A DNA stretch of 35,626 bases from Micromonospora endophytica (GTDB lineage: Bacteria > Actinomycetota > Actinomycetes > Mycobacteriales > Micromonosporaceae): positions 1 through 35,626 of the forward strand of contig NZ_POTX01000034.1 in assembly GCF_003236305.1 (NCBI RefSeq). Reading direction: 5' to 3'. Positions 3,021 through 19,326 of this stretch are shown here, piece after piece (positions within the stretch are counted from its first letter, which is position 1; every line of letters starts with the position of its first letter). Both the position numbers and the translations under genes were made by a program. A model generated the notes under the pieces. It was not told the DNA's origin, did no database searches, and was given only the letters and a program-made list of their open reading frames with translations.

Positions 3021-3066
3021 CACGCAAAGCAGAGTAGGGCCGTACCCCGTCACAGAGCTCGAATGC

Positions 3067-3636
3067 TCAGGTCATGACGCGGACGCCGGGCCAGCGTTCG
3101 GTGGGGCGGTGACGAGCGAGTCGCCGCCGAGAAATCTCCGGGCTGACCCTGGCCGGGTTGCGCCGCCATACGCCGTCGAGCAGGTCGTCGAGGCCGTGCG
3201 GTGCGCAGACGACGACCTGGTCATGCGCGTCCAGGCGGACGGCCACAGCGGTGGCGTACTCAGGCCAGGTCGCGACCGCGTCGGCGATGCTCCGCAACGG
3301 GGCCACCGGGCCGCCACCGAACTTCGCGGGATACCAGGTGTGCACGGCCGCCTGGTTCTTCGCCTCCCACGGCGGCTCCGGCCAGACCGCTACCAGCCGC
3401 GCGGTGGCCCAGTCGTCGTTGTCGCGGGTCAGGTCCGCCGGGTCAAGGAAGACGACGTCGACATCGCGCACCGATGACGGGTCGAAGCCGGCTCCGTACC
3501 GTTCACCCCACACCAGGTCGCGGATAACGCCGGCACCGAGCCAGGCGTCCGACAACCCGGAGTCCCGTACGACGCCCAGCGCCCGGATCAGCCATCGGCT
3601 GCCCTGGACGAGTTCCCTCAGCTCGTCCTCCCGCAC
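3067..3636 (-). CDS. Nucleotidyltransferase family protein (DUF925/NTP_transf_6 type)
   Basis: This is a 189-residue protein starting at GTG 3636. The start is supported by TAGACT six bases upstream (3643-3648) and the lack of a ribosome site, so the transcript is probably leaderless. LSDAWLGAGVIRDLVWG is followed by VRDVDVVFLDPADL, which carries the acidic DxD metal-binding pair of the nucleotidyltransferase fold. PPWEAKNQAAVHTWY is the family signature. The C-terminal third (TAVAVRLDAHDQVVVCAPHGLDDLLDGVWRRNP) also fits the usual length and layout. Members are predicted nucleotidyltransferases with unknown acceptors. It stands alone, convergent with nothing and unlinked to the kinase stump 47 bases downstream. 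Confidence 0.85.
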   Translation of the reverse strand: MREDELRELVQGSRWLIRALGVVRDSGLSDAWLGAGVIRDLVWGERYGAGFDPSSVRDVDVVFLDPADLTRDNDDWATARLVAVWPEPPWEAKNQAAVHTWYPAKFGGGPVAPLRSIADAVATWPEYATAVAVRLDAHDQVVVCAPHGLDDLLDGVWRRNPARVSPEISRRRLARHRPTERWPGVRVMT

Positions 3637-3642
3637 GGTCCC

Positions 3643-3648
3643 AGTCTA
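3643..3648 (-). promoter_or_regulatory. -10 box of a probable leaderless promoter
   Basis: TAGACT on the minus strand, followed by GGGACC and the GTG start at 3636. No clear -35 element was found. Confidence 0.5.
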
Positions 3649-3743
3649 GGAGCACCGCCAGCGACGGCATCACATCGTCGCCTGCGGATCGTCGTGTGCT
3701 CGGGTGGATGATCCGGGAGCCGGTGGCGAGGGTGCGGAGAGGG

Positions 3744-4244
3744 TCAGGGTGTGGCGGGTGGAGGGTCGTCGTCGCGGCCGATCAGGGGCAGCTTAGCGGT
3801 GGTGGCGATGTGGAGGATGGCTTTCTCCATCGAGGTGGTCTCGGGCAGGACGACTTCGCCATTGTGACCGAGGACGTCGTGCGGGGCGTACCAGTCGCGC
3901 ATGTTGTCCGCGGTGAACTCCGTGGCCTGCGGGCGCATCTGATGCCGGCGCAGGGTTTCGGGCAGGGACACGTCGAGATAGACGAACAGCGTCCGACCGC
4001 GATGGGCGTGATGCAGGAACGTGAGCAACTGCCGGTACCGGGCGGTGTGCATGAGCCCTTCGAGGATCACGTGATAGCCGTGATCGAGGGCCATCCGGAC
4101 CGTCTGCTCGATGAGAGCAGGCGCGAGCCCACCGGGCCTGTCCCGTTCCCGCAGCAGCACACGGCGTAGATGGTCCTGCTCGACCTTACCGATCAGCGAC
4201 GATGTGTTCGGTGGCCATAAGCTGGGAAAACGCGTGACGCACAT
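3744..4244 (-). pseudogene. P-loop nucleotide kinase (zeta-toxin/AAA kinase-like) lacking its P-loop
   Basis: From about 4187 downward the protein reads KVEQDHLRRVLLRERDRPG, ALIEQTVRMALDHGYHVILEGLMH, RTLFVYLDVSLPETLRRHQMRPQ and MRDWYAPHDVLG. This is the body of a small actinobacterial kinase family in which the N-terminus normally reads like LIVIRGNSGSGKS...WVEQDHLRR. Here the 60-70 bases before KVEQDHLRR contain no GxxxxGK[ST] in any minus-strand frame, so the ATP-binding site is missing. An ATG at 4244 could start a short product, and the open frame continues to 4391, overlapping the next gene upstream. Without a P-loop the product should not bind ATP normally, hence a 5'-truncated pseudogene. 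Confidence 0.7.
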
Positions 4245-5607: not shown

Positions 5608-6227
5608 TCACCGCGCCGGCCGCTTTGAAATCCCTGCCAGCGGCTTGGGCACCTGGGTGTCGAGGAGTTCGGCTTCGAGGTCAGCGAGCCGCTTGTCGAG
5701 AAACCGGTTGTTGGAGCGGGCGGCCTGCAGCTTCTGATCGAGGACCCGGTTGTCCTCGGTGAGTCGGCGAAGACGCTGTTTGAGCTCGGTGTTCTCCTCA
5801 GCCAGGCGCTGGGCGGTGCCCTCGGTGTATTCGGCCTGGAGGTCGCGGAGCTGGCCGAGCAGGAGACCGATCCGCTCGCGCTGAGTGTCGATCTCGGCGT
5901 AGGCCGCCTTGACGGCGTCCTCGGCGTTGAGGGCGCGCTGTTGCCAGGACGCCTCGACGTTCGCATCGTGCGTTTCCCGGTCTCGCCTCCTCCGGTCGCC
6001 GGCTGCCTCGATGGCGGTGACCACGAGTCTCTTGGCGTCGGCGTTCTGGTAGAGGAAGGTGCGAGACACGCCGGCTCGGGCCGCGACCGCGGGATAGGTG
6101 ATGGGGCCCGCTCGCGGCGCATGGTGCGCAGTGTCGTGTCGATCCGTTGCAGCTTGTCGCGGGTGCTCTGCTGACGGGCGCGGTTGGCCGCCTGCGTCCG
6201 GGCGGTTCCGGCGCCGGTCGTGCTCAT
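5608..6227 (-). pseudogene. DUF6262-family recombinase partner (tnpC-like), frameshifted
   Basis: The first gene part starts at ATG 6227 (MSTTGAGTARTQAANRARQQ) and overlaps the integrase B stop as ATGA. The N-terminal 40 residues are in one frame up to MRRERAP. From there the sensible continuation, ITYPAVAARAGVSRTFLY, is in another frame, so one base is missing within 6103-6109 (GGGGCCC on the plus strand). Restored, the product has a basic N-terminus, a helix-turn-helix (PAVAARAGVSRTFLYQNADAKRLV) and a long coiled coil (AEENTELKQRLRRLTEDNRVLDQKLQAARSNN). This is the layout of DUF6262 proteins, which follow paired tyrosine recombinases as tnpC follows tnpA/tnpB in Tn554. The frameshift could be real decay or a sequencing error in a homopolymer. 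Confidence 0.8.
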
Positions 6228-8793
6228 AGGTCATCCTTCGAGCTGCCGACCGTGACGAGGTCGGAGGTTCGGAATCCGACGCCCCAGAGCCGGTGAAAGT
6301 AGTCCTGCGGGCGGCGTAGGTCGAGCGCGAGCGCGTCTTCCAAGAGGTTGAGACCGGCCAGGGCCCGTTCCAAGCCGTCGATCGTTTTGGCGGTGGGCTC
6401 GAACTGCTGGTGCAGCCAGTCGGCCATCTCGTCGGTGGGCGCGCGTTCGGCGAGTGAGGACCACTGCTCGCGCTTGCGGCGCCAGTAGAGCAGGTCAGCG
6501 TCGGTCATCACGAACTTGTCGCAGCCCTCGCAGTTCAGCTTCCAAGGGCAGGCGCCGCCGTCAACGACGACCTGATAGGTGCAGATGCCGCCGTCCGTGG
6601 GTGCGCTGCGGCGCCCGAGATCGATCATCAGCGCGCGGGCCTGCTCGGCAGGCAGCGGGGTCACCCCGCTGGAGACCAGCGCGCCGGGTTGCTGGGTTCC
6701 TGGCCCAGCGACCCAAATGGTCTGCAGCACGTCGTCGATCTCGCTGACTGCGACCTTGGCGTAGTGCTCGGTCATCCGTTCCGAGAGATGGCCGAGGTAG
6801 CGCTTGATGTGTTGGAGACTCGCACCGGCTGCCAGGAGGCGGGTCGCGAGGGTGTGACGGGCTTGATGGGGCACGGCCGGATCGAGGTTCATGCGGGCGA
6901 TCCACTGGCGGAATCGGATGTTGAACCAGGCGTTGCTGATGGCGTAGGTGCCGTGCGGGTTGCGGTAGCCGCGGGGAAACAGCGCCATCGTGCCGCGTTC
7001 CTGCAGGGCGGGTGTTCGCCCGTACCGGTCTTCGAATCGGGTGATGGTCTTGCGCTGCCGTTCCCGCAGCCGTTGGAAGGTGTAGTCGGGGATGCGGATG
7101 GCCTCGTTGTAGTTGCCGACCTTCGTCTGGTCGTGCCAGAGCAGCGGGGCGCCGTTGTGAATTCCGATGCAGTCCAGCCGGAGGCCGATCACTTCTCCGG
7201 CCCGCCGGCCGGTCGCGACGATCGTCTCCCAAATATCTCGTATCCCCGATCCATGACATCGGCCTGCTCCAACTGTTCCAGGTTGGCCTGGTCCACCAGG
7301 GCTCTGGCGGTGTCGTCGGCGTAGGGGCTACGCGGGCGGAAGGGTCGCTTGCCGGCCAGCGGGAACGCCCAGACGACTTTGCGGTCCATGCCGATCTGGT
7401 CGGTGCGGCCCGTTTCCAGCTCGGCCCGCATCATGCGCCGCAAAGCATCGAAGGTGCTCTTGGAGGTGATCTCGCTGATGGTCGGTGTCTTGGTGTTGTT
7501 GCTCGGCCGCAGGGAGGGTAGGTGGTCTCGCGCTCGGCGACGTTGATCGGCGACGAACTGGTCGACATGCTCGACCGACAGCAGGGACGGATCGTGTCCG
7601 CCTCCCGGTGCTCGGGCTTCGAGGAAGTATCCCAACTCTTGCACCGCGACGCGGATGGCGAAGTAAGTGCCGCGACCCCGAGGACAGTCCGCAGAGCGCA
7701 AGAGATCGGCAAGATGTTCCCAGAGCAGGTCCCGCAGCCATCGTTGCGGGACCTGGGTGAGGTCGAACCGGTTGTTGAGCTTGGGGATCCGGCGCCCGAA
7801 GTGCTCGAAGTCGATGTAGCCGGCCTCCTTGCTCTCCGTCGGTGTGACGTAGACGATCTCCAAATCGCGGAGCATCTCGGTCACGATCACCCGCTCCTGC
7901 TCTCCCCGGCTGTCCCGATCGAACTCGTCCAGGGATCCAAGATCGCGGCAAGTCTCCACCACCCGCAGGATCGCGTGCATCCACCAGCGGGTGTGGTCGG
8001 TGCGCTGCGTGTAGGCGTGCAGGCCCCATTTCAGCTCGGCCTTGATCAGGGGCTTCATGCCGTAGAGGCTGATCTGGCCGGGCCGTGGAGCTGGCTGGAC
8101 CTGACGACACCAGCGGCGGAATGCCGTCTCGTCGTCGTAGGCGACCGGGACGACGTCGCCGCGTCGGTCAAGCCAGCGCCCCCAGTTAGACGGCAACCGT
8201 GCCCCGCCTGGCCGGCCGGCTCGCCGGTAGAGCTTCTCGTGGTCCTCACAAAGTAGTAGCGGCGAGCGAGCCAGTTCCGAGCACGAAACCGCAGCGCAGT
8301 CGCCGTAGGAGGCGCAAGGTTCCTGCCGCGCCACCCACTCGTCGAACACGGTGGTGTCCGGAACCTGTGTGGATCCGCTGACTTCCAGCCACTGATGCAG
8401 GTGGAAACCGCACAGCTCGGCCGCCATGCTTCGCTGGGCTGGTCGGCCGCATTCCTCGACACGACAGTCCGGTGGTGGGGCAAGCCGTCTGCTGGGCTCG
8501 CCCGGCGAGGCGGTGCGCAGGAACTCCAACCGATCCATCCCGGACACTTGCCGCTCGTACCACTGCTTCAGATGGTTGCCGCAGAGCTCCCGAGACTTGA
8601 TGTAGCCGTCACAGCCGTCGATCAAGCAGTTCCAGTGCAGGGCCGGATGGTCTTTCGGGATGTGGATGACGTCGCCGCGAAACAGCGGGTCGAACCCCGG
8701 GCTCTCGATCAGGGCGGTCAGGACCTCCAGCCGGTCCCGGGGCTCTCGGCCGTTGACTCGAACCAGCGCGAGATGGGGAACGGTCGCCGTCAC
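6224..8793 (-). pseudogene. Large tyrosine recombinase (integrase B, tnpB-like), frameshifted
   Basis: Translation would start at GTG 8793, which overlaps the stop of integrase A (GTGA). The N-terminal part is rich in Cys/His pairs (DCRVEECGRPAQRSMAAELCGFHLHQW, CASYGDCAAVSC, LLLCEDHEKLY), a zinc-ribbon-like DNA-binding region. The frame ends at 7189 in an out-of-frame tail. The true continuation WETIVATGRRAGEVIG-LRLDCIG, with the first catalytic arginine, is one frame away, so one base is missing at about 7228-7233. The rest holds HQARHTLATRLLAAGASLQ (H-x-x-R box), YLGHLSERMTEHYAKV (catalytic tyrosine) and a C-terminal zinc-like CTYQVVVDGGACPWKLNCEGC. Intact length would be about 856 residues. 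It is a cut-and-rejoin recombinase for a mobile element and is now split. Confidence 0.85.
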
Positions 8794-9330
8794 GTCTGGC
8801 TCCAGACCTTGCGCAGAACCGCCTGGAACTGGGGATCGTGAATATCGGTGTGGCCGTAGATCTCGTCGACGGTGGCGCTGGACGCCCAGCCGCCGGCATC
8901 GCGGGCGATCACGAGGTTGCCACCGGAGGCATCCAGGACCGCGGTGGCGAAGTTGTGCCTGGTCTGGTGCGGATGAACCCGCCCGAGTCCGGCGCGCAGA
9001 CCCGCGCGCCGGAACATACTGCGGGCACCCGCCGCGGACAGCGGCTGCCCGTAGTGGTCGCCGCCGAGTTGCACCAGCAGCATCCCGTGGCCCGTCGCCG
9101 CTGTGCGGGGATATTCGCTGGTCATGTAGGCGAAGTAGGTGTGGATCATCGCGGGGCTGACCCGCCGGATCAGGCCACCGCGCACGAGGCCGTTGACCAG
9201 ATCCCAAGGGTGTTTCGTCTTGACCCTGGCCTTGTTGACGTTCGCTTCTCGATGGCAGATGTGCACGTGCGCGGCGCGGGCCTGCGCGCACTCGGCGTTC
9301 TCCCGCAAGTGCAGGTCAGCGAGGTGGAGT
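8790..9330 (-). pseudogene. Tyrosine recombinase (integrase A, tnpA-like), 5'-truncated
   Basis: The recognisable part begins near ADLHLRENAEC (about 9325) and continues with CHREANVNKARVKTKHPW, IRRVSPAMIHTYFAYMTSEYP, the catalytic HQTRHNFATAVLDASGGNLVIARDAGGW (H-x-x-R) and DEIYGHTDIHDPQF with the nucleophilic tyrosine. The N-terminal core-binding domain and the first catalytic arginine box (usually R-I-x-x-x-L-G-L-R before xDLH) are missing. Upstream of about 9335 the minus frame stays open to 9587 but has no integrase character, and better coding signs appear on the other strand. The gene stop overlaps the integrase B start, so the three-gene order A-B-DUF6262 is preserved. This enzyme could not catalyse recombination. 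Confidence 0.8.
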
Positions 9331-9722: not shown

Positions 9723-10058
9723 GTGTGGCGGCCCGCTGAGCGCAACGCCTGGACCAGCAGAAACAAGACACCTTCCGTGTGGACGGAGGGCGGCCCAATC
9801 AGTACGTTTTACGAGGCTGCGAAAGGTTTAGAGACATTATGCCCGGTTCGGACTACGGATCAGAAGGTTCCGAGTCCAAGTCGAATGGACAGCAAGGCCC
9901 TGCCCTCTACTCTTGACCTACCTACGTCTGACCAGGGCAAACGCCGCTTGATGATCTTCAGCAAGAGAGCACAGCAGCGCCCCAAAGCGACAGGTGAACG
10001 TGGGGGAAATGCGGAAAACTGCCGGTCATCGGCCTACATAAATGGGCAGCGACCAGTG
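9723..10058. other. Gene-free, lower-GC segment between integrase module and tRNA half
   Basis: I see no coding frame with actinobacterial codon bias here. Base composition drops visibly (runs such as TACGTTTTACGAGG and GGTTTAGAGACATTATG), unlike flanking chromosome-type DNA. The segment ends exactly at the tRNA-Arg break point and probably belongs to an integrated element. Confidence 0.5.
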
Positions 10059-10096
10059 TTAGGAAACCGATGCTCTATCCCCTGAGCTACGAGGGC
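10059..10096 (-). tRNA. 5' half of tRNA-Arg(CCU), broken after the anticodon loop
   Basis: Read on the minus strand from 10096 the sequence gives acceptor strand GCCCTCG, TA, D-arm GCTC-AGGGGATA-GAGC, A, anticodon stem TCGGT and loop TTCCTAA, which is tRNA positions 1-38 with anticodon CCT. The next base should begin the complementary stem strand (ACCG-type), but the sequence turns to CACTGGTCGC. No TpsiC arm or acceptor 3' strand follows. A -10-like TAGACT lies at 10107-10112, ten bases before the tRNA start, so the promoter survives. A break at the anticodon loop is the usual crossover point for tyrosine recombinases that use tRNA genes as attachment sites. Confidence 0.75.
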
Positions 10097-10316
10097 GCGA
10101 GGGCCCAGTCTAGCGACCTGCGGGTTCGCCTGGGGTGGCAGGGAGTGGCCCACGTTCACCACGTCACCCGCACCCCGTTCTCCCAGCCCAGGAGCACACC
10201 CGAAGTCTCCGTGCGACTCCGGGTGATCTTGGCAGGCAGGGCAGGGCCTATCTCGCCAACGACACCTCTCTGCTGCCAACCCCTTGACACAGAGAGGCGC
10301 CGTTAGATCCACAGAC

Positions 10317-10439
10317 CCTCTGCAACGGGTCACCGGGTACAGCCGGGAGACGATCCGCCAGGCACGCCGACCGGAAGTCCGGCGGGCGACCAACCTCAAC
10401 CGGCGCAGAACATCACCTCAGCCACCGGCGGACTACTGA
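10317..10439 (+). pseudogene. C-terminal remnant of a small helix-turn-helix protein
   Basis: One plus frame reads PLQRVTGYSRETIRQARRPE and ends RATNLNRRRT...PPADY before TGA at 10437. The piece VTGYSRETIR looks like the recognition helix of small HTH proteins that precede AbiE-like genes in actinobacteria. No start or N-terminal half is present. The evidence is short and tentative. Confidence 0.3.
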
Positions 10440-10463
10440 CCCTACGGCGACCGAAAGCCCTAC

Positions 10464-10682
10464 GTGATCGCCGAAACCCTCACCGCGCTGCACGGCCCGA
10501 CCGACGGCACGGTGAGGCTTCCGCGTCACCTTGACTGGTCCGGGCACCCCGACTACGACCTGAACCGGCCCGCACGCCTGGCCAGCATGTACAAAATGGT
10601 GCTCACCGAAGCCAGCACGACCGAGGATCTGCACACCTGGCTCGACGCCGACCTCCTCCGGCGGCGCTGGCCCATCCTCTGG
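10464..10682 (+). pseudogene. Hypothetical AbiE-locus companion protein, 3'-truncated
   Basis: Starting at GTG 10464 the frame gives about 73 residues: IAETLTALHGPTDGTVRLPR, then HLDWSGHPDYDLNRPARLAS, MYKMVLTEASTTEDLHTWLD and ADLLRRRWPILW. In related actinobacteria I recall a protein with this sequence directly before a nucleotidyltransferase of the AbiEii/AbiGii type. Here the frame breaks after ILW at 10682 and the following bases belong, in another frame, to the interior of the nucleotidyltransferase. The C-terminus of this protein and the N-terminus of the next one have therefore been lost together in one deletion. The function of this family is not known to me. Confidence 0.55.
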
Positions 10683-10683
10683 C

Positions 10684-10942
10684 GCGTTGGCCGGCGGTTA
10701 CGCGGTTCAGGCCGCTGGGCTCGTCGAGCGGGCCAGTGAGGACGTCGACCTGTTCACCGCCTGGGACCGCCGCGACGAGTTCACCGCCGCGGTCGCCGCC
10801 GTCGTGCACGCCTACCGGAACGACGGCCTGACCGTCGAGACCGAGCGGCAGTACGACACGTTCGCCCGGCTGGCCGTCACCGACGGCACCCGGATTTCCA
10901 AGGTCGAACTCGGCGTGGACTGGCGCGCCAACGCGGGCGGCC
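10684..10942 (+). pseudogene. AbiEii/AbiGii-type nucleotidyltransferase fragment, truncated at both ends
   Basis: The frame reads ALAGGYAVQAAGLVERASED, VDLFTAWDRRDEFTAAVAAV and ISKVELGVDWRANAGG. GG(Y)-x(8-10)-R-x-SEDVDLF is the nucleotide-binding and metal-binding core of the AbiEii toxin family, the nucleotidyltransferase half of abortive-infection/toxin-antitoxin pairs. The start is missing (fusion to the previous gene at 10683) and, after the family segment VELGVDWRA, the C-terminal helical domain is absent. The open frame runs on to 11055 into the convergent gene without family character. The active-site motif is intact, but such a short fragment is unlikely to work. Confidence 0.7.
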
Positions 10943-13689: not shown

Positions 13690-14667
13690 ATGACCGCGGC
13701 ACCCAAGCCGAACTCACTACTCACTCCGGGCGAGCCCCGCAACGGGGCGTCAGTTCCCGCCGGGGTCGAATACCACCGGGTACTCGCCAGCGACAAACGC
13801 CGGATCGGTCGCGGCATTCTCGCGATCATCCTCCTGCTGGCCGGGTTCGTCATCTTCCCGACGGTCCTCGGCAGGGCGGCTGCGGCCATCGACGTACAGC
13901 AGGGCAACACCCCGCCGATCCTGGGCGGCACCGACTACACGCCGCTCTACCACGCCGGTACCATGCTCTCCCTCGGCCTGCTCATTCCGTGGAGCATGTT
14001 CATCCAGCGGTGGCTCTACGGCGTACCCGGTGCGTCCCTGCACTCCGTGACGTCGCGGTTCCGCTTCGACCTGCTCGGCAGGTCGCTGCTCATCTTCGGT
14101 CCCGCCTGGCTGGTGGTCACCGCCCTCGGAGCTCTCCCGCCCGTCGAGCAGTTCCCCTGGTCGCAGACCGACCTCATCGCCATCTTCCTCGCCACGATGC
14201 TGCTCACCCCGCTCCAGTCGGCGGGCGAGGAATACGGCGTGCGTGGGTTGATCTTCCGCGTGATCGGAAGCTGGACCCGCAGCCCGCGGGCGGGACTGGT
14301 CGCCGGGGTACTGGTCTCGAGCGTGCTGTTCACGGCCGCACACGGCGCAACGGATCCGTACATCATCGTCTGGTACTTCGTGCTCTGGACCGGACTGGCC
14401 ATCATCACCTGGCGCACCGGCGGGCTGGAGATCGCAGTCATGCTCCACGCCGTCCTCAACACGTTCACGTTCGTCCTGGCCACAATCTTGCGGGTGGACC
14501 TCGGCAGTGCCCTGCAGGACCGCTCAGCCGGAGTCGGCACGCCGTACCAGCTCGTCCCCACCTTTGCGGTCGTCGTCATCACCGCAACCATCTGGTGGCG
14601 TACCCGGAAGACAGGACCAGTAGTTACCTCAGGCCGCAGTCAAACGCCAGGTCACGCGCGGTCGTGA
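13690..14667 (+). CDS. CPBP-family intramembrane glutamic protease
   Basis: The 325-residue protein starts at ATG 13690 with AGGAGG upstream. After a 40-residue cytoplasmic tail it has about eight membrane segments. The catalytic CPBP (CAAX protease/bacteriocin-processing, formerly Abi) motifs are present: motif 1 GEEYGVRG (E180, E181, R185), motif 2 FTAAHG (H218) and motif 3 MLHAVLNT (H253, N257). These enzymes cleave within the membrane; bacterial members are linked to prenyl-protein processing, peptide maturation or self-immunity to bacteriocins. Here it is the last gene of a TetR-controlled pair with an uncharacterised membrane protein, and no peptide precursor gene is visible nearby. The substrate is unknown. 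Confidence 0.9.
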   Translation: MTAAPKPNSLLTPGEPRNGASVPAGVEYHRVLASDKRRIGRGILAIILLLAGFVIFPTVLGRAAAAIDVQQGNTPPILGGTDYTPLYHAGTMLSLGLLIPWSMFIQRWLYGVPGASLHSVTSRFRFDLLGRSLLIFGPAWLVVTALGALPPVEQFPWSQTDLIAIFLATMLLTPLQSAGEEYGVRGLIFRVIGSWTRSPRAGLVAGVLVSSVLFTAAHGATDPYIIVWYFVLWTGLAIITWRTGGLEIAVMLHAVLNTFTFVLATILRVDLGSALQDRSAGVGTPYQLVPTFAVVVITATIWWRTRKTGPVVTSGRSQTPGHARS

Positions 14668-14672
14668 CGGGG

Positions 14673-14710
14673 CAGCGGCGGCCCCGGAGGTGGGGCCGGC
14701 GTGGCCGCTG
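14673..14710 (+). terminator. Probable transcription terminator hairpin after the CPBP gene
   Basis: CAGCGG-C-GGCCCC, loop GGAGGT, then GGGGCC and, after a seven-base bulge, CCGCTG. The core 6-bp GC stem starts 6 bases after the stop codon. There is no T-run, as is common for actinobacterial terminators. It may also serve the converging SMR gene. The rest of the 262-base gap up to 14930 holds nothing I recognise. Confidence 0.45.
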
Positions 14711-14929
14711 ACCGCGACCGAGTGATTGGCAGGCCGGAGCCGGCCTGATGCCGGGCCTGATGCCACAAGGTGACGCAGGGCGATCGGACGTTCCCTGCGA
14801 CCCAACCCTGACCACGCGAACGTGAACGTAGCGGTGGACCCCTTCTACGAACCGCCTCGCGCAGCGGCGGCCCTGCTCTCGGCGCGGCGCAGGGAGGGGC
14901 ACACGTTGTCCATGCCCCACCGAGTCTCC

Positions 14930-15250
14930 TCAATGTGCCCCGCCGAGGTTGAGCACCACCACGCCACTGACGACGAGCCCGATTCCCACGACCTTCGCGA
15001 GGGTGAGCGGCTCACCGAGGAAGGCCGCTCCGATCGCCGCGATCGCTGCGGTGCCGAGACCGGCCCAGAGGGCGTACGCCACACTGACCGGGATGTGCTG
15101 CACCGCCCGGGCGAAGAGATAGAACGAGGTCAGGTAGGCCGCGACGAGACCGAGCGTCGGCCACAGGCGGGTGAAGCCCGCGGTCGCCTTCATCAAGCTC
15201 GTTCCCAGGATCTCCGCGATGATCGCGAAGGTCAGCAGCAGGTATCCCAT
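14930..15250 (-). CDS. Small multidrug resistance (SMR) family efflux protein
   Basis: ATG 15250 (MGYLLLTFAIIAEILGTSLM, 106 residues) has AAGAGGAAC upstream, and the length is normal for the family. Four membrane helices are clear. The membrane-embedded glutamate in helix 1 is E13 (AIIAEILGTSLMKAT), the residue that binds protons and cations in EmrE. WPTLGLVAAYLTSFYLFARAV and IPVSVAYALWAGLGTAAIA are the usual SMR helix 2/3 signatures. A single gene without a paired second SMR subunit suggests a homodimer. It exports lipophilic cations or guanidinium-like compounds in exchange for protons. The substrate class cannot be told here. Confidence 0.9.
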   Translation of the reverse strand: MGYLLLTFAIIAEILGTSLMKATAGFTRLWPTLGLVAAYLTSFYLFARAVQHIPVSVAYALWAGLGTAAIAAIGAAFLGEPLTLAKVVGIGLVVSGVVVLNLGGAH

Positions 15251-15319
15251 GCCAGTTCCTCTTTCGTACGCGCACACACTCGCGCAATGGGTGAACGAAT
15301 CATGGCGGCTGCGCCACCG

Positions 15320-16189
15320 TCACCGGTTGGCGGACGGCACCGCCGGTCCGGTGCTGGCGAGGAAGACCCGCAGGGTCCGCGCCGGCTGCCCGGTGACGCG
15401 CTCGACGGTGTCGGTCACCTCCGCGAAGCGGCCCGCCCGGACCCGCTCGAAGGTCAACACGTTGAGATCTCTTTCGAACCCCGTCGTGCCGACGACCGCC
15501 TCGGCGATGGTCACCTCCCGGTGCGACACGGGCCGTCCGGCGGCGGCGGAGAGCAGGTCCGCGGTGCGCGGCAGCGACAGTGACTCCGGGCCGGAGAGTT
15601 CGTACACCTGACCGGCGTGCCCCTCATCGAGCAGGGCCCGCTCGGCCACCGCTGCGATGTCCCGGGCGTCGATCCAGGCCACCGCCGCACCCCCGCTGGG
15701 GAAGGGGAACTCCCCAGTGTCGACGATCGAGTCGCGGTAGAAGCGCGGATCGGTGAAGACCTGCATGAACCAGCTCGGTCGCAGGATCGTCCAGGTCCGG
15801 CCGCTGTCCTGTACCGCGCGCTCCGCACGCGGCGCCCATCCATCCGGCCCGGTGTGGTCCGGATCCCGCTCGGAGAGCAGAACGACCCGGGCCTGGGCTG
15901 GGATCTCGGCCAGCAGCGCGCCGATCAGCTCCGGCGCGTCCGCCCGGTCCGGGCGGACCACGTACACCGCGTCGACGCCCTCGGCCGCCGCCGCCCACCT
16001 GGACGGTTCGTCCCAGGAGAAGGCTGTCGGACGGACGTCGGCGAGGTGGATGGTGGACGGATCGCTGCTTCCGCCGCGCACCTCCACGCGCGGCCGCGCC
16101 GTGAGCAGCTCCGCCAGCGGCACACCCGTCTTGCCCCGGACCCCGGTCACCAGCACGCGAGTCGTGCCGGCCAAGTTCGCACCCTGCAC
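15320..16189 (-). CDS. NmrA-like NAD(P)-binding oxidoreductase
   Basis: I choose GTG 16189 (VQGANLAGTTRVLVTGVRGK, 289 residues) because GGGAGGG lies about 7-10 bases upstream; ATG 16207 is possible but has no ribosome site. VLVTGVRGKTGVPL is the N-terminal Rossmann motif of the NmrA/atypical SDR group. GVDAVYVVRPD, RVVLLSERDPD, TILRPSWFMQVF (the typical LRPxxFM segment) and AWIDARDIAAVAERALLDEGHAGQVYELSGPESLS follow in family order. Members sense or reduce with NADP(H), often acting on quinones or redox signals. It is divergent from a MarR regulator with two palindromes between, so MarR probably controls it. The same frame stays open upstream opposite the MarR genes but has no homology there. 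Confidence 0.85.
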   Translation of the reverse strand: MQGANLAGTTRVLVTGVRGKTGVPLAELLTARPRVEVRGGSSDPSTIHLADVRPTAFSWDEPSRWAAAAEGVDAVYVVRPDRADAPELIGALLAEIPAQARVVLLSERDPDHTGPDGWAPRAERAVQDSGRTWTILRPSWFMQVFTDPRFYRDSIVDTGEFPFPSGGAAVAWIDARDIAAVAERALLDEGHAGQVYELSGPESLSLPRTADLLSAAAGRPVSHREVTIAEAVVGTTGFERDLNVLTFERVRAGRFAEVTDTVERVTGQPARTLRVFLASTGPAVPSANR

Positions 16190-17394: not shown

Positions 17395-19326
17395 GTGCCT
17401 GACGTCGTGCCGGCCGGGCGATCCTCGGGTGGAGCCTACGTCGTCCGGGCCGCGCTCGTCGTCGTCGCGCTCGGGGTCGTGTTCGGCGACATCGGCACCA
17501 GTCCGATCTACACCATGCAGACCGCCTTCAACCCGGCCGACCCGCATCCGGTCCCGGTCAGCCGGGACAACGGGTTCGGTGTCGTCTCGCTGATCTTCTG
17601 GTCGGTCATGATGATCGTGACCCTCACCTACGTCACTCTCGCGATGCGGATGAGCAACGAGGGTGAGGGCGGCATCATGGCGCTGATCACCCTGTTGCGT
17701 CGCCGCAGCACGGGAACTGCCGGTCGGACGGGTGCGGCGTTGGCGACGGCGGGTGTCTTCGGCGCCGCGCTGTTCTTCGGCGACAGCATGATCACCCCGG
17801 CGATCTCCGTACTCGCCGCGGTGGAAGGACTCAAGGTCATCCAGCCGTCGACGGAGACCCTCGTCGTTCCGATCACCGTACTGATCATTCTGTTGCTGTT
17901 CGCGCTGCAACGCCGCGGCACCGCCACCGTCGGACGCCTGTTCGGGCCGGTGATGGTCGCGTGGTTCGCGGCCATCGGCCTGTGCGGGGTGGCCGGCGTC
18001 GTCCGGCAGCCGGCGATCCTCGGCGCACTGTCACCCACCCACGCCGTCAACTTTCTCGCCGGGCATTTCCACATCGCCTTCTTCGCCCTGGCCGCCGTCG
18101 TGCTCTCGGTCACCGGCGCCGAGGCACTGTACGCGGACATGGGGCACTTCGGCCGTCGGGTCATCACGCGTGGCTGGCTGTTGCTGGTGCTGCCCGCCTG
18201 CACGCTCAGCTACTTCGGTCAGGGCGCGTTGATTCTCGCCGCCCCGTCGGCGGTGAGCAGTCCGTTCTTCCTGCTCGCACCCGGTTGGGCGCGTCTACCG
18301 ATGGTCGTGCTGGCCACGGCGGCCACGGTCATCGCCTCCCAGGCGGTGATCACCGGCGCCTACTCGGTGACCGCGCAGGCCGCTCGGCTCGGTTACCTGC
18401 CACGGTTACGCATCGCGCACACCTCGGCGTCGACAATCGGTCAGATCTACGTACCGTCGATCAACTGGCTGCTCATGCTCGCCGTCCTCACCCTGGTGCT
18501 CACCTTCGGCAGCTCGACAGCCCTGGCGTACGCCTTCGGGATGTCGGTCGTCACCACCATCACCATCACCACTCTGCTCTTCTTCCACCTCGCCCGGGTG
18601 CGCTGGCACGTTCCGCTCTGGCTTGTGGTTCCCGGTGCCGTCATCCTGCTCACCGTCGACCTGCTGTTCCTGTCGGCGAATCTCACGAAGCTCACGCACG
18701 GGGCGTGGCTGCCGCTGCTCATCGGGCTGGCGGCCTTCACCGTGATGAGCACCTGGCAGCGGGGTCGGGAGGTGGTGACCCAGGAACGCGAACGCCGGGA
18801 AGGGCCCCTGCGTACCTTCGTCGACGACCTGCACGCTGGCCGCTTCCCGCACACCCGCGTGCCCGGCACGGCGGTGTTCCTCAACCGCAGCAAGGAGACG
18901 ACGCCGTTGGCGATGCGCGCCAACGTGCGGCACAACCGCGTGCTGCACCGCCATGTCGTGATCATGCTGGTGCAGACCGTGCCAGTTCCGCAGGTGTCCC
19001 CTGCGCACCGGATCCAGGTCGACGACCTGGGCTACACCGAGGACGGGATCGTCCACGTCACCGCCAGGTTCGGATATCTCCAGGCCCCGAACGTGCCCGA
19101 GGCGCTGGAGTTGCTCCGGGCCACCCAGACGGAAGGCCACGTGGAGGTGACGGACGCCTCCTACTTCCTGTCCCCGGTCGACGTGGTCGCCGGGCGCGCC
19201 CCGACGATGGCGCGTTGGCGCAAGCGCCTGTTCGTCGCCACCTCCCACCTCGCCGGCGACGCCGCCGCGCACTATGCCCTGCCCCGGGACCGCACCGTCA
19301 CGATCGGCTCCCAGATCGAGGTCTGA
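17395..19326 (+). CDS. kup: Kup-family potassium uptake transporter
   Basis: GTG 17395 follows AGGAGGAGG. The 643-residue protein has the KUP/HAK/KT layout: about twelve membrane helices in the first 440 residues, then a soluble C-terminal domain. The family signature ALGVVFGDIGTSPIYTMQTAF is at residues 25-45, and other typical parts are NEGEGGIMALITLL, FGAALFFGDSMITPAISVLAAVEGL, TGAEALYADMGHFGRR, TGAYSVTAQAARLGYLPRLRIAHTS and GQIYVPSINWLLMLAVL. It imports potassium, probably with protons, across the cell membrane. The C-terminal part includes GTAVFLNRSKETTPLAMRANVRHNRVLHRHVVIM, typical of the cytosolic domain. The 137 bases upstream contain no c-di-AMP riboswitch that I can fold. Complete and ordinary for its family. 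Confidence 0.95.
   Translation: MPDVVPAGRSSGGAYVVRAALVVVALGVVFGDIGTSPIYTMQTAFNPADPHPVPVSRDNGFGVVSLIFWSVMMIVTLTYVTLAMRMSNEGEGGIMALITLLRRRSTGTAGRTGAALATAGVFGAALFFGDSMITPAISVLAAVEGLKVIQPSTETLVVPITVLIILLLFALQRRGTATVGRLFGPVMVAWFAAIGLCGVAGVVRQPAILGALSPTHAVNFLAGHFHIAFFALAAVVLSVTGAEALYADMGHFGRRVITRGWLLLVLPACTLSYFGQGALILAAPSAVSSPFFLLAPGWARLPMVVLATAATVIASQAVITGAYSVTAQAARLGYLPRLRIAHTSASTIGQIYVPSINWLLMLAVLTLVLTFGSSTALAYAFGMSVVTTITITTLLFFHLARVRWHVPLWLVVPGAVILLTVDLLFLSANLTKLTHGAWLPLLIGLAAFTVMSTWQRGREVVTQERERREGPLRTFVDDLHAGRFPHTRVPGTAVFLNRSKETTPLAMRANVRHNRVLHRHVVIMLVQTVPVPQVSPAHRIQVDDLGYTEDGIVHVTARFGYLQAPNVPEALELLRATQTEGHVEVTDASYFLSPVDVVAGRAPTMARWRKRLFVATSHLAGDAAAHYALPRDRTVTIGSQIEV

Follow-up and report, generated by a model that had tools for sequence, protein, structure and literature searches.

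The closest described systems are tRNA-borne islands that displace the 5' part of their target gene. In the available part of the Islander survey (PMC4383910), 3760 of 3919 islands have a 3' fragment of the tRNA gene and 159 have a 5' fragment, so islands that leave a 5' fragment are a known kind, of rare polarity. As far as that text describes them, the 5'-fragment islands resemble the locus presented here: an intact tRNA gene and a same-strand fragment bracket the island, one of the crossover classes is anticodon-centred, and tandem arrays occur. Archaeal pTN3-like integrases, in the available text of their description (PMC8371274), show a second likeness, as they target the 5' half of a tRNA gene as attB and an element-borne promoter drives expression of the rebuilt tRNA.

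The locus lies in the window, the whole stretch of 35,626 nucleotides that we analysed, which is the complete contig C277 of the 561-contig draft genome of Micromonospora endophytica (G000). Its features are the following.

10059..10096, minus strand: displaced 5' half of tRNA-Arg(CCU), nucleotides 1-38, identical to the intact gene on contig C125, with no 3' half after it
10066-10059, minus strand: core TTTCCTAA, at the anticodon-loop end of the half tRNA
10092..10243, minus strand: promoter and arm preceding the half tRNA (putative right-end arm of the preceding unit), matched at E 3e-33 by a profile from relatives that includes the window copy
9924..10061, minus strand: putative element left end, forming the element side of attL, matched at E 4e-24 by a profile of 44 left ends, the window's included
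5640..9329, minus strand: relic of a recombinase trio, which we take to be Tn554-like, with a TnpA lacking its N-terminal part, a TnpB in two frames and a DUF6262 TnpC-like protein (Pfam Phage_integrase twice and DUF6262)
3065..3999, minus strand: cargo, an NTP_transf_6 nucleotidyltransferase (3067-3636; Pfam) and its neighbour, with an 87% DNA match to locus L101 8955-9888
10319..10933, plus strand: AbiEi/AbiEii-like gene remnants, carried as cargo by an older unit that precedes the stub, with 86-92% DNA matches to pieces of L080, L082, L084, L103, L107 and L111
12259..14668, no strand assigned: TetR-like and CPBP-like genes (named by inspection), older island cargo, 92% identical over 2.4 kb to L097 6928-9329

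Read on the minus strand from 10096 to 10059, the window contains a perfect 5' half of tRNA-Arg(CCU) that includes the anticodon and is preceded by a promoter. Identity to the intact C125 gene stops where the anticodon loop ends, and the window diverges after TTTCCTAA. The unbroken identity spans 67 bases ending at 10059 and includes, upstream of the half tRNA, a TAGACT -10-like box (by inspection); the half tRNA and its upstream region together are 84.8% identical to the C125 copy over 151 bp. ARAGORN finds no tRNA anywhere in the window, and no Rfam family matches the window at gathering thresholds. At a relaxed Rfam threshold three matches appear around the half tRNA, all far below the gathering threshold. 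A 20-nt piece of the half tRNA, with up to 3 mismatches, is found once compared to 0.00 times expected in shuffles, and a chance origin is excluded. An earlier note on this DNA had described a tRNA-Arg(CCU) broken after the anticodon loop, with a -10 box upstream and no 3' half, and both the identity to the C125 gene and the ARAGORN result confirm this description. The tRNA 3' end that it expected, CGAGGGC, was slightly wrong, as the actual 3' strand reads CGGGGGC.

The genome contains 47 tRNAs (Rfam) and a single intact tRNA-Arg(CCU), at C125:3889-3815, which is also the only one reported by ARAGORN among the Rfam tRNA places. From 29 nt upstream of this gene to its nucleotide 38, the C125 sequence matches the window without a difference, so the promoter region is duplicated. 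The 3' half of tRNA-Arg(CCU), sought with up to 3 mismatches, occurs once, on C125. The count in G000 is therefore two promoter-plus-5' halves versus one 3' half, which implies that the element carries a promoter and a 5' half and strands the original ones at the window. Had the element brought a 3' half, the imbalance would be the reverse, and thus a 5'-half-carrying element is the simplest reading. An intact tRNA gene and a fragment of the same gene, the mark of an island, are both present in this genome. The matching 3' half and the second tRNA-Arg(CCU), for which a search of the genome had been proposed, were found together, intact, on C125. The window and C125 are separate draft contigs that cannot be joined directly; paired by logic and by analogy with relatives, they would be the two ends of one insertion.

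The half tRNA is very probably the host-side half of attL, left by an element whose attB was the anticodon loop of the only tRNA-Arg(CCU) gene. From the structure of the sites we infer the following reaction. The attP site would consist of a second tRNA promoter and 5' half, followed by the core and then by the conserved left end. Crossover in the core by a tyrosine recombinase would join the host promoter and 5' half to the left end, which gives the stub at window 10059. At the other end, the promoter and 5' half of the element would be joined to the host 3' half, giving the complete tRNA-Arg(CCU) at C125:3889-3815, and this rebuilt tRNA would then run from the element-borne promoter. Every further insertion would split the rebuilt tRNA again, so that units stack, with the newest adjoining the host 3' half. 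A crossover in the anticodon loop had been anticipated in the earlier note, and agrees with the end of identity to the C125 gene at the loop, where the core lies. Its idea that the missing half sits at the far end of the element is supported as regards the far end, but what that end carries is most likely a complete tRNA-Arg(CCU) and not a bare half, since a promoter and a 5' half come with the element itself.

Both element ends are conserved in Micromonosporaceae, the left end over ~120-160 bp after the core, with the motifs CCTGC and GTCGC, and the right end over ~160 bp before the 5' half. The window has both ends according to profile matches, with the window itself included in both profiles. 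Among 86 distinct left ends, 31 have an inverted copy of GAGCATCGG, a tRNA-side sequence, on the element side across the core, differing at no more than 2 of 9 positions; paired recombinase core sites should show such an arrangement. In the window left end this inverted copy is absent (6 mismatches of 9). The flanks of the stub in Acidimicrobiia, Planctomycetota and others differ from those in Micromonosporaceae, and judging from these flanks the same trick seems to exist there with different arms. A left-end repeat, CCGCAGG..CCTGCGG, was considered as a terminator hairpin silencing the stranded promoter and was dropped as a general feature. Across 39 aligned left ends CCTGC and GTCGC are invariant or nearly so and the opposite hairpin arm is variable; the window left end folds no better than shuffles (z -0.65), and two of seven sequences fold well (z -4.8 and -4.6).

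By inspection, a GTGTGCTC motif of the right arm is a recurrent insertion site of IS110-family elements or their right ends. The IS110 lies upstream of the arm in L080 (12970-14160), L107, L138, L170 and L192, and in L088, L090, L097 and L106 its right end abuts the left-end core, with the 5' half missing. Of 125 stubs or tRNAs, 7 have a member of the IS110 cluster in the 5 kb upstream of them. We rejected the IS110 transposase as mobiliser, as both placements look like insertions of a hitchhiker into att sequence. In L084 a two-gene module (MIEEATVDAY..., VSEYQYYEF...) is found at 31-1461 before the stub and at ~14476-15906 near the right end of the next unit, which suggests a repeated right-end module.

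We compared up to 6 kb of DNA upstream of 109 stubs with that upstream of 49 intact tRNAs, where a pair shares at least 700 bp at nearly equal distance from the core. This gave 35 stub/tRNA pairs, from partly redundant loci and with several pairs sharing the IS110-bearing right end; among the 30 listed, 29 have a shared piece that reaches the core, L177/L099 being the one that does not. Past the core, an element follows in one genome of such a pair, and the tRNA 3' half in the other. The match that extends furthest upstream reaches 5.9 kb, in two pieces (L170 and L080). The empty-site comparison suggested earlier thus succeeds for relatives, with these pairs of occupied and empty sites, but no long pair for the window's own stub is among the 30 of 35 pairs listed.

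Similar imbalances recur across the genus. At least two copies of the 5' half are present in nine of 25 genomes (G000-G024), namely G000, G002, G004, G006, G008, G012, G013, G018 and G023; the two copies of G023 are complete tRNAs. In the same 25 genomes, with the 3' half sought at up to 3 mismatches, 5' halves outnumber 3' halves in G000, G002, G004, G006, G008, G012, G013 and G018, with four versus two in G008 and three versus one in G013, and G014 has one 5' half and zero 3' halves found. The order from stub to tRNA, with both ends on one contig, is seen in G002, G012, G008, G018, G217, G272 and G287. Relatives have tandem same-strand halves on one contig, the stub being upstream and the intact tRNA downstream in those that were read; in G000 the two are on separate contigs. 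Genes downstream of the tRNA (clusters c0 and c1) recur in at least eight relatives, and the upstream genes differ in most neighbourhoods.

Three of these genomes show further variation. G014 (L104, L211; ~100 contigs) has a stub and a tRNA-Arg(CCU) 3' half that is unmatched at up to 3 mismatches, the tRNA being missing, divergent or in an assembly gap. The two complete tRNA-Arg(CCU) genes of G023 (L081 7748 and 11017) are 3.3 kb apart and have differing promoters. G004 (L085 9895) has an intact tRNA without an element-type arm, and upstream identity ends at the first base of the tRNA.

The exact stub sequence, sought in 84,980 named genomes, occurs in 91 stretches, 80 of which are listed as loci; the pattern excludes stubs followed by an A, and some were therefore overlooked. 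The 80 loci are mostly from Micromonosporaceae. The genera include Micromonospora, Salinispora, Plantactinospora, Actinoplanes, Dactylosporangium, Virgisporangium and Planosporangium as well as several other actinobacteria, and stubs are also found in Acidimicrobiia, Planctomycetota and records labelled Acidobacteria. None of the 80 readable matches has a T arm within 45 nt of the stub (81 matches in 80 loci; L191 ends after 5 nt). Beyond the genus we surveyed the 15 genomes reached through stub loci. Tandem same-strand halves on one contig are present in G378, G380, G382, G383 and G384, with an intact tRNA at one half in the last three and at neither half in G378, where the second copy is at the contig end, and G380. 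The halves of G381 are on opposite strands of one contig, one of them intact. Two copies on separate contigs, one intact, are found in the planctomycete drafts G370, G372, G373, G374 and G376 and in the Acidimicrobiia draft G377. Single copies are found in G371, G375 and G379, and G371 has a complete tRNA-Arg(CCU) ~200 bp downstream of the stub. In L180 (Acidimicrobiaceae) two 5' halves, at 6216 and 7910, lie 1.7 kb apart with similar upstream sequence and no 3' half after either, as in a very small unit.

Phage_integrase matches in nine genomes pointed to one tyrosine integrase subfamily near the site. Among the 25 genus genomes, members with at least 74% identity number four (in G004, G005, G006 and G018), and all four are upstream of the tRNA or on the contig of the stub. 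As a control, of 13 relatives with at most 52% identity in the same genomes, five are on other contigs and the remaining eight lie at distances above 460 kb. The subfamily has 40 copies (E 1e-190 or better) in 39 of 354 Micromonosporaceae genomes from six genera; 33 copies share a contig with a 5' half and seven are on contigs without one. Of these 33, 21 lie between two tandem same-strand halves, in intervals of 37-170 kb and 16-72 kb from the downstream half, four of them on the opposite strand. Another 11 are within 32 kb of a half, nine upstream and two downstream, and five of the 11, including the two downstream, are opposite in strand to the half. The remaining copy, with 64% identity, is 379 kb from a half (G208). 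Two consecutive intervals of G367 each contain one integrase. Genomes with the integrase carry two or more 5' halves in 27 of 36 cases, compared to 6 of 21 genus genomes without it (Fisher p 0.0009), with mismatch limits for the 5' half of at most 2 in the former and at most 3 in the latter.

An upstream stub and a downstream intact tRNA were read directly in four of the 21 intervals (G018, G217, G272 and G287), the last three fetched across the whole interval. The integrase contains Phage_int_SAM_3 and Phage_integrase domains. It is followed by a pentapeptide-repeat gene in G272, and a gene with HTH and M78-peptidase matches is found slightly further on in G217. The linked integrase is absent from G000, and where 21 intervals of relatives contain it, the window contains only two broken Phage_integrase genes of another kind. 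No recombinase shared within 5 kb downstream of 97 stubs is present among the 14 commonest protein clusters there. Single tyrosine recombinases are located near the stubs in L185 and L187. The enzyme of the family is most likely an integrase related to L207:6235-7692, carried by the large islands; this assignment is by genetic linkage, from which the reaction is inferred.

No integrase match was found in the stub-to-tRNA intervals of G002 (10.3 kb), G012 (12.8 kb), G008 (20 kb) and L172 (2.1 kb). Such short units would have moved in trans or would be deletion derivatives. Whether they are only deletion derivatives of the large integrase islands, never mobile alone or in trans, is evenly poised. 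The units of G002 and G012 have defence cargo like that of the large islands and lack the integrase, which favors deletion, but they keep both conserved ends, and stubs recur beside different genes in many genomes, with one interval as short as that of L172. The G002 and G012 intervals, with both ends and no integrase match, fit helper-dependent units and deletion derivatives alike, and so does the L172 interval, which is bounded by a stub and a tRNA.

The cargo was sampled by picking island proteins that look like defence genes and then scanning them, and the sample is not a census. G012 contains JetC of Wadjet with adjacent DUF2397 and DUF3323/DUF2399 proteins as well as AbiEii; G002 a TOTE-type primase-helicase and a DUF4143 ATPase; G272 DrmA-like and MzaA-like proteins, a cytosine methylase and a weaker match to a GajA-like ATPase; G217 MzaC-like and MzaE-like proteins; and G287 a protein with caspase, NB-ARC and TPR matches. 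The protein at L287:3398-5749, one of ten cargo proteins in its scan, gave zero matches, and that at L287:1734-3389 matched many helicase-type models and no other kind. Among 10 island proteins scanned with Pfam, there are no tra or rep genes. By analogy with integrons, tRNA-Arg(CCU) might serve as a landing site for standard-ended units, many without integrase and loaded with defence genes, stacked in arrival order by an integrase acting in trans from large helper islands, each unit rebuilding the tRNA, with analogous systems in Planctomycetota and Acidimicrobiia that use different arms. We regard this wider picture as possible but doubtful; if true, the stack of stubs would document, in order of time, the acquisition of immunity genes.

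Next to the left end of the element, on the inside, lies the recombinase trio of the window, and its two Phage_integrase proteins and DUF6262 protein might be taken for the enzyme that inserted into the tRNA. This is very unlikely. The TnpB of the trio is present in 10 of 250 family genomes, G000 included, but 10 neighbourhoods from the nine other genomes (two from G070) contain no tRNA-Arg(CCU) 5' half at up to 5 mismatches and only one tRNA, a tRNA-Lys. TnpB is absent from the stub-bearing G002 and G008, the trio has no match beyond itself in 36 loci compared, and the window trio is truncated at 9329, where its DNA match to G070 ends. We also looked for an intact Tn554-like element with its own ends at the stub; the truncated trio and the lack of tRNA-Arg(CCU) halves in the other neighbourhoods do not bear it out. 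The TnpB-like gene is in two overlapping reading frames at window 7192-7327, and its G070 relative is a single open frame.

The G009 counterpart of the 3065..3999 block is ~320 bp upstream of an intact tRNA (L101, tRNA at 10205), and in the window the right arm and 5' half expected after the block from the G009 order are missing at 3065, which suggests the loss of a further right end. To the right of the stub, AbiEii has a Pfam match in L084, and the G020 unit that holds the L097 6928-9329 block is just upstream of a tRNA (left end 6372, tRNA 10124). By these matches the region of ~10.1-14.7 kb is older island material and not clean chromosome, and the window is probably a piece of a decayed stack of units. 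The claim that the half tRNA marks an island edge stands, with the edge at 10059 and the element to the left according to the left-end profile. The island extent of 3 to 11 kb proposed with it has a real edge but is too simple, as older island cargo is also found right of the stub. For the window gene at 17395-19326, ~7 kb right of the stub, 11 of 12 relatives have no counterpart at E 1e-100, and that in G012 has 46% identity and is on contigs other than the tRNA's; a synteny test with this gene therefore does not identify the true chromosomal left flank.

Slightly less probable than the trio as the inserting enzyme is a dead tRNA locus, left by failed restoration or by deletion of the 3' half after integration. 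It would account for a window without a 3' half, but the sole 3' half found in G000 belongs to an intact tRNA that has the promoter and 5' half of the stub in duplicate, and stub and intact tRNA share a contig in the seven relatives given above. No separate orphan 3' half was found in the draft G000. The failed restoration offered in the earlier note is thus not borne out: with an intact tRNA on C125, restoration appears to have taken place, with unusual polarity. Anticodon loops of tRNA-Arg(CCU) are group I intron sites in some bacteria, which would favor an intron or another unusual complete tRNA, but this reading is hardly credible, as ARAGORN and Rfam find neither in the window, no group I intron is detected in the window or in the 40 of 80 stub loci scanned at Rfam gathering thresholds, and an intact tRNA-Arg(CCU) is present elsewhere in G000.

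The insertion of 5'-half-carrying elements is probably not the only use of this gene. The 3' halves outnumber the 5' halves in G001, G009, G010, G016, G019, G020 and G021, and G008 also has an extra 3' half. Tyrosine-integrase genes or remnants facing the tRNA are found within ~600 bp downstream of it in G001, G010, G020, G021, G023 and on C125, where the match is weak (E 9e-6). Ordinary 3'-displacing islands and 5'-displacing islands seem to share this anticodon loop, the former lying downstream and the latter upstream, so that one tRNA gene is apparently loaded from both sides. The broken tRNA provides a searchable marker for the island family. Given the sampled cargo, which includes Wadjet-, DrmA-, Mza- and AbiE-like genes, the stub may also help find defence loci. 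In addition, the linked enzyme is a candidate integrase for the antibiotic-producing Micromonosporaceae, and its att site can be predicted.

The known systems are compared here from the parts of each source that were available. The Islander islands (PMC4383910) require an integrase, whereas here one tRNA is used family-wide with a linked integrase subfamily, and some intervals lack an integrase. The pTN3-like integrase gene (PMC8371274) is split at the site, whereas here the enzymes are bacterial and the integrase lies well inside the island. AICEs (PMC3218068) likewise use tyrosine integrases and include tandem insertions in a tRNA-Arg gene, but the vast majority of those with tyrosine integrases are in tRNA 3' ends, whereas here the intervals that bracket the integrase are 37-170 kb and the 5' half is displaced. 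In mycobacteriophage tRNA-dependent lysogeny (PMC10865867), an element-borne tRNA sequence also makes insertion into a tRNA gene tolerable, but there a whole phage tRNA replaces a tRNA that is not rebuilt, whereas here a half and a promoter would rebuild the gene. Tycheposons (via PMC10872708) are likewise cargo elements bordered by a tRNA gene and equipped with a tyrosine recombinase, but displacement of the 5' half is not described in the available text. No description of this island family was found in the literature searched, among the matches listed. What is new, by this comparison, is a family with a linked integrase, conserved ends and defence cargo, and one tRNA gene used from both sides.
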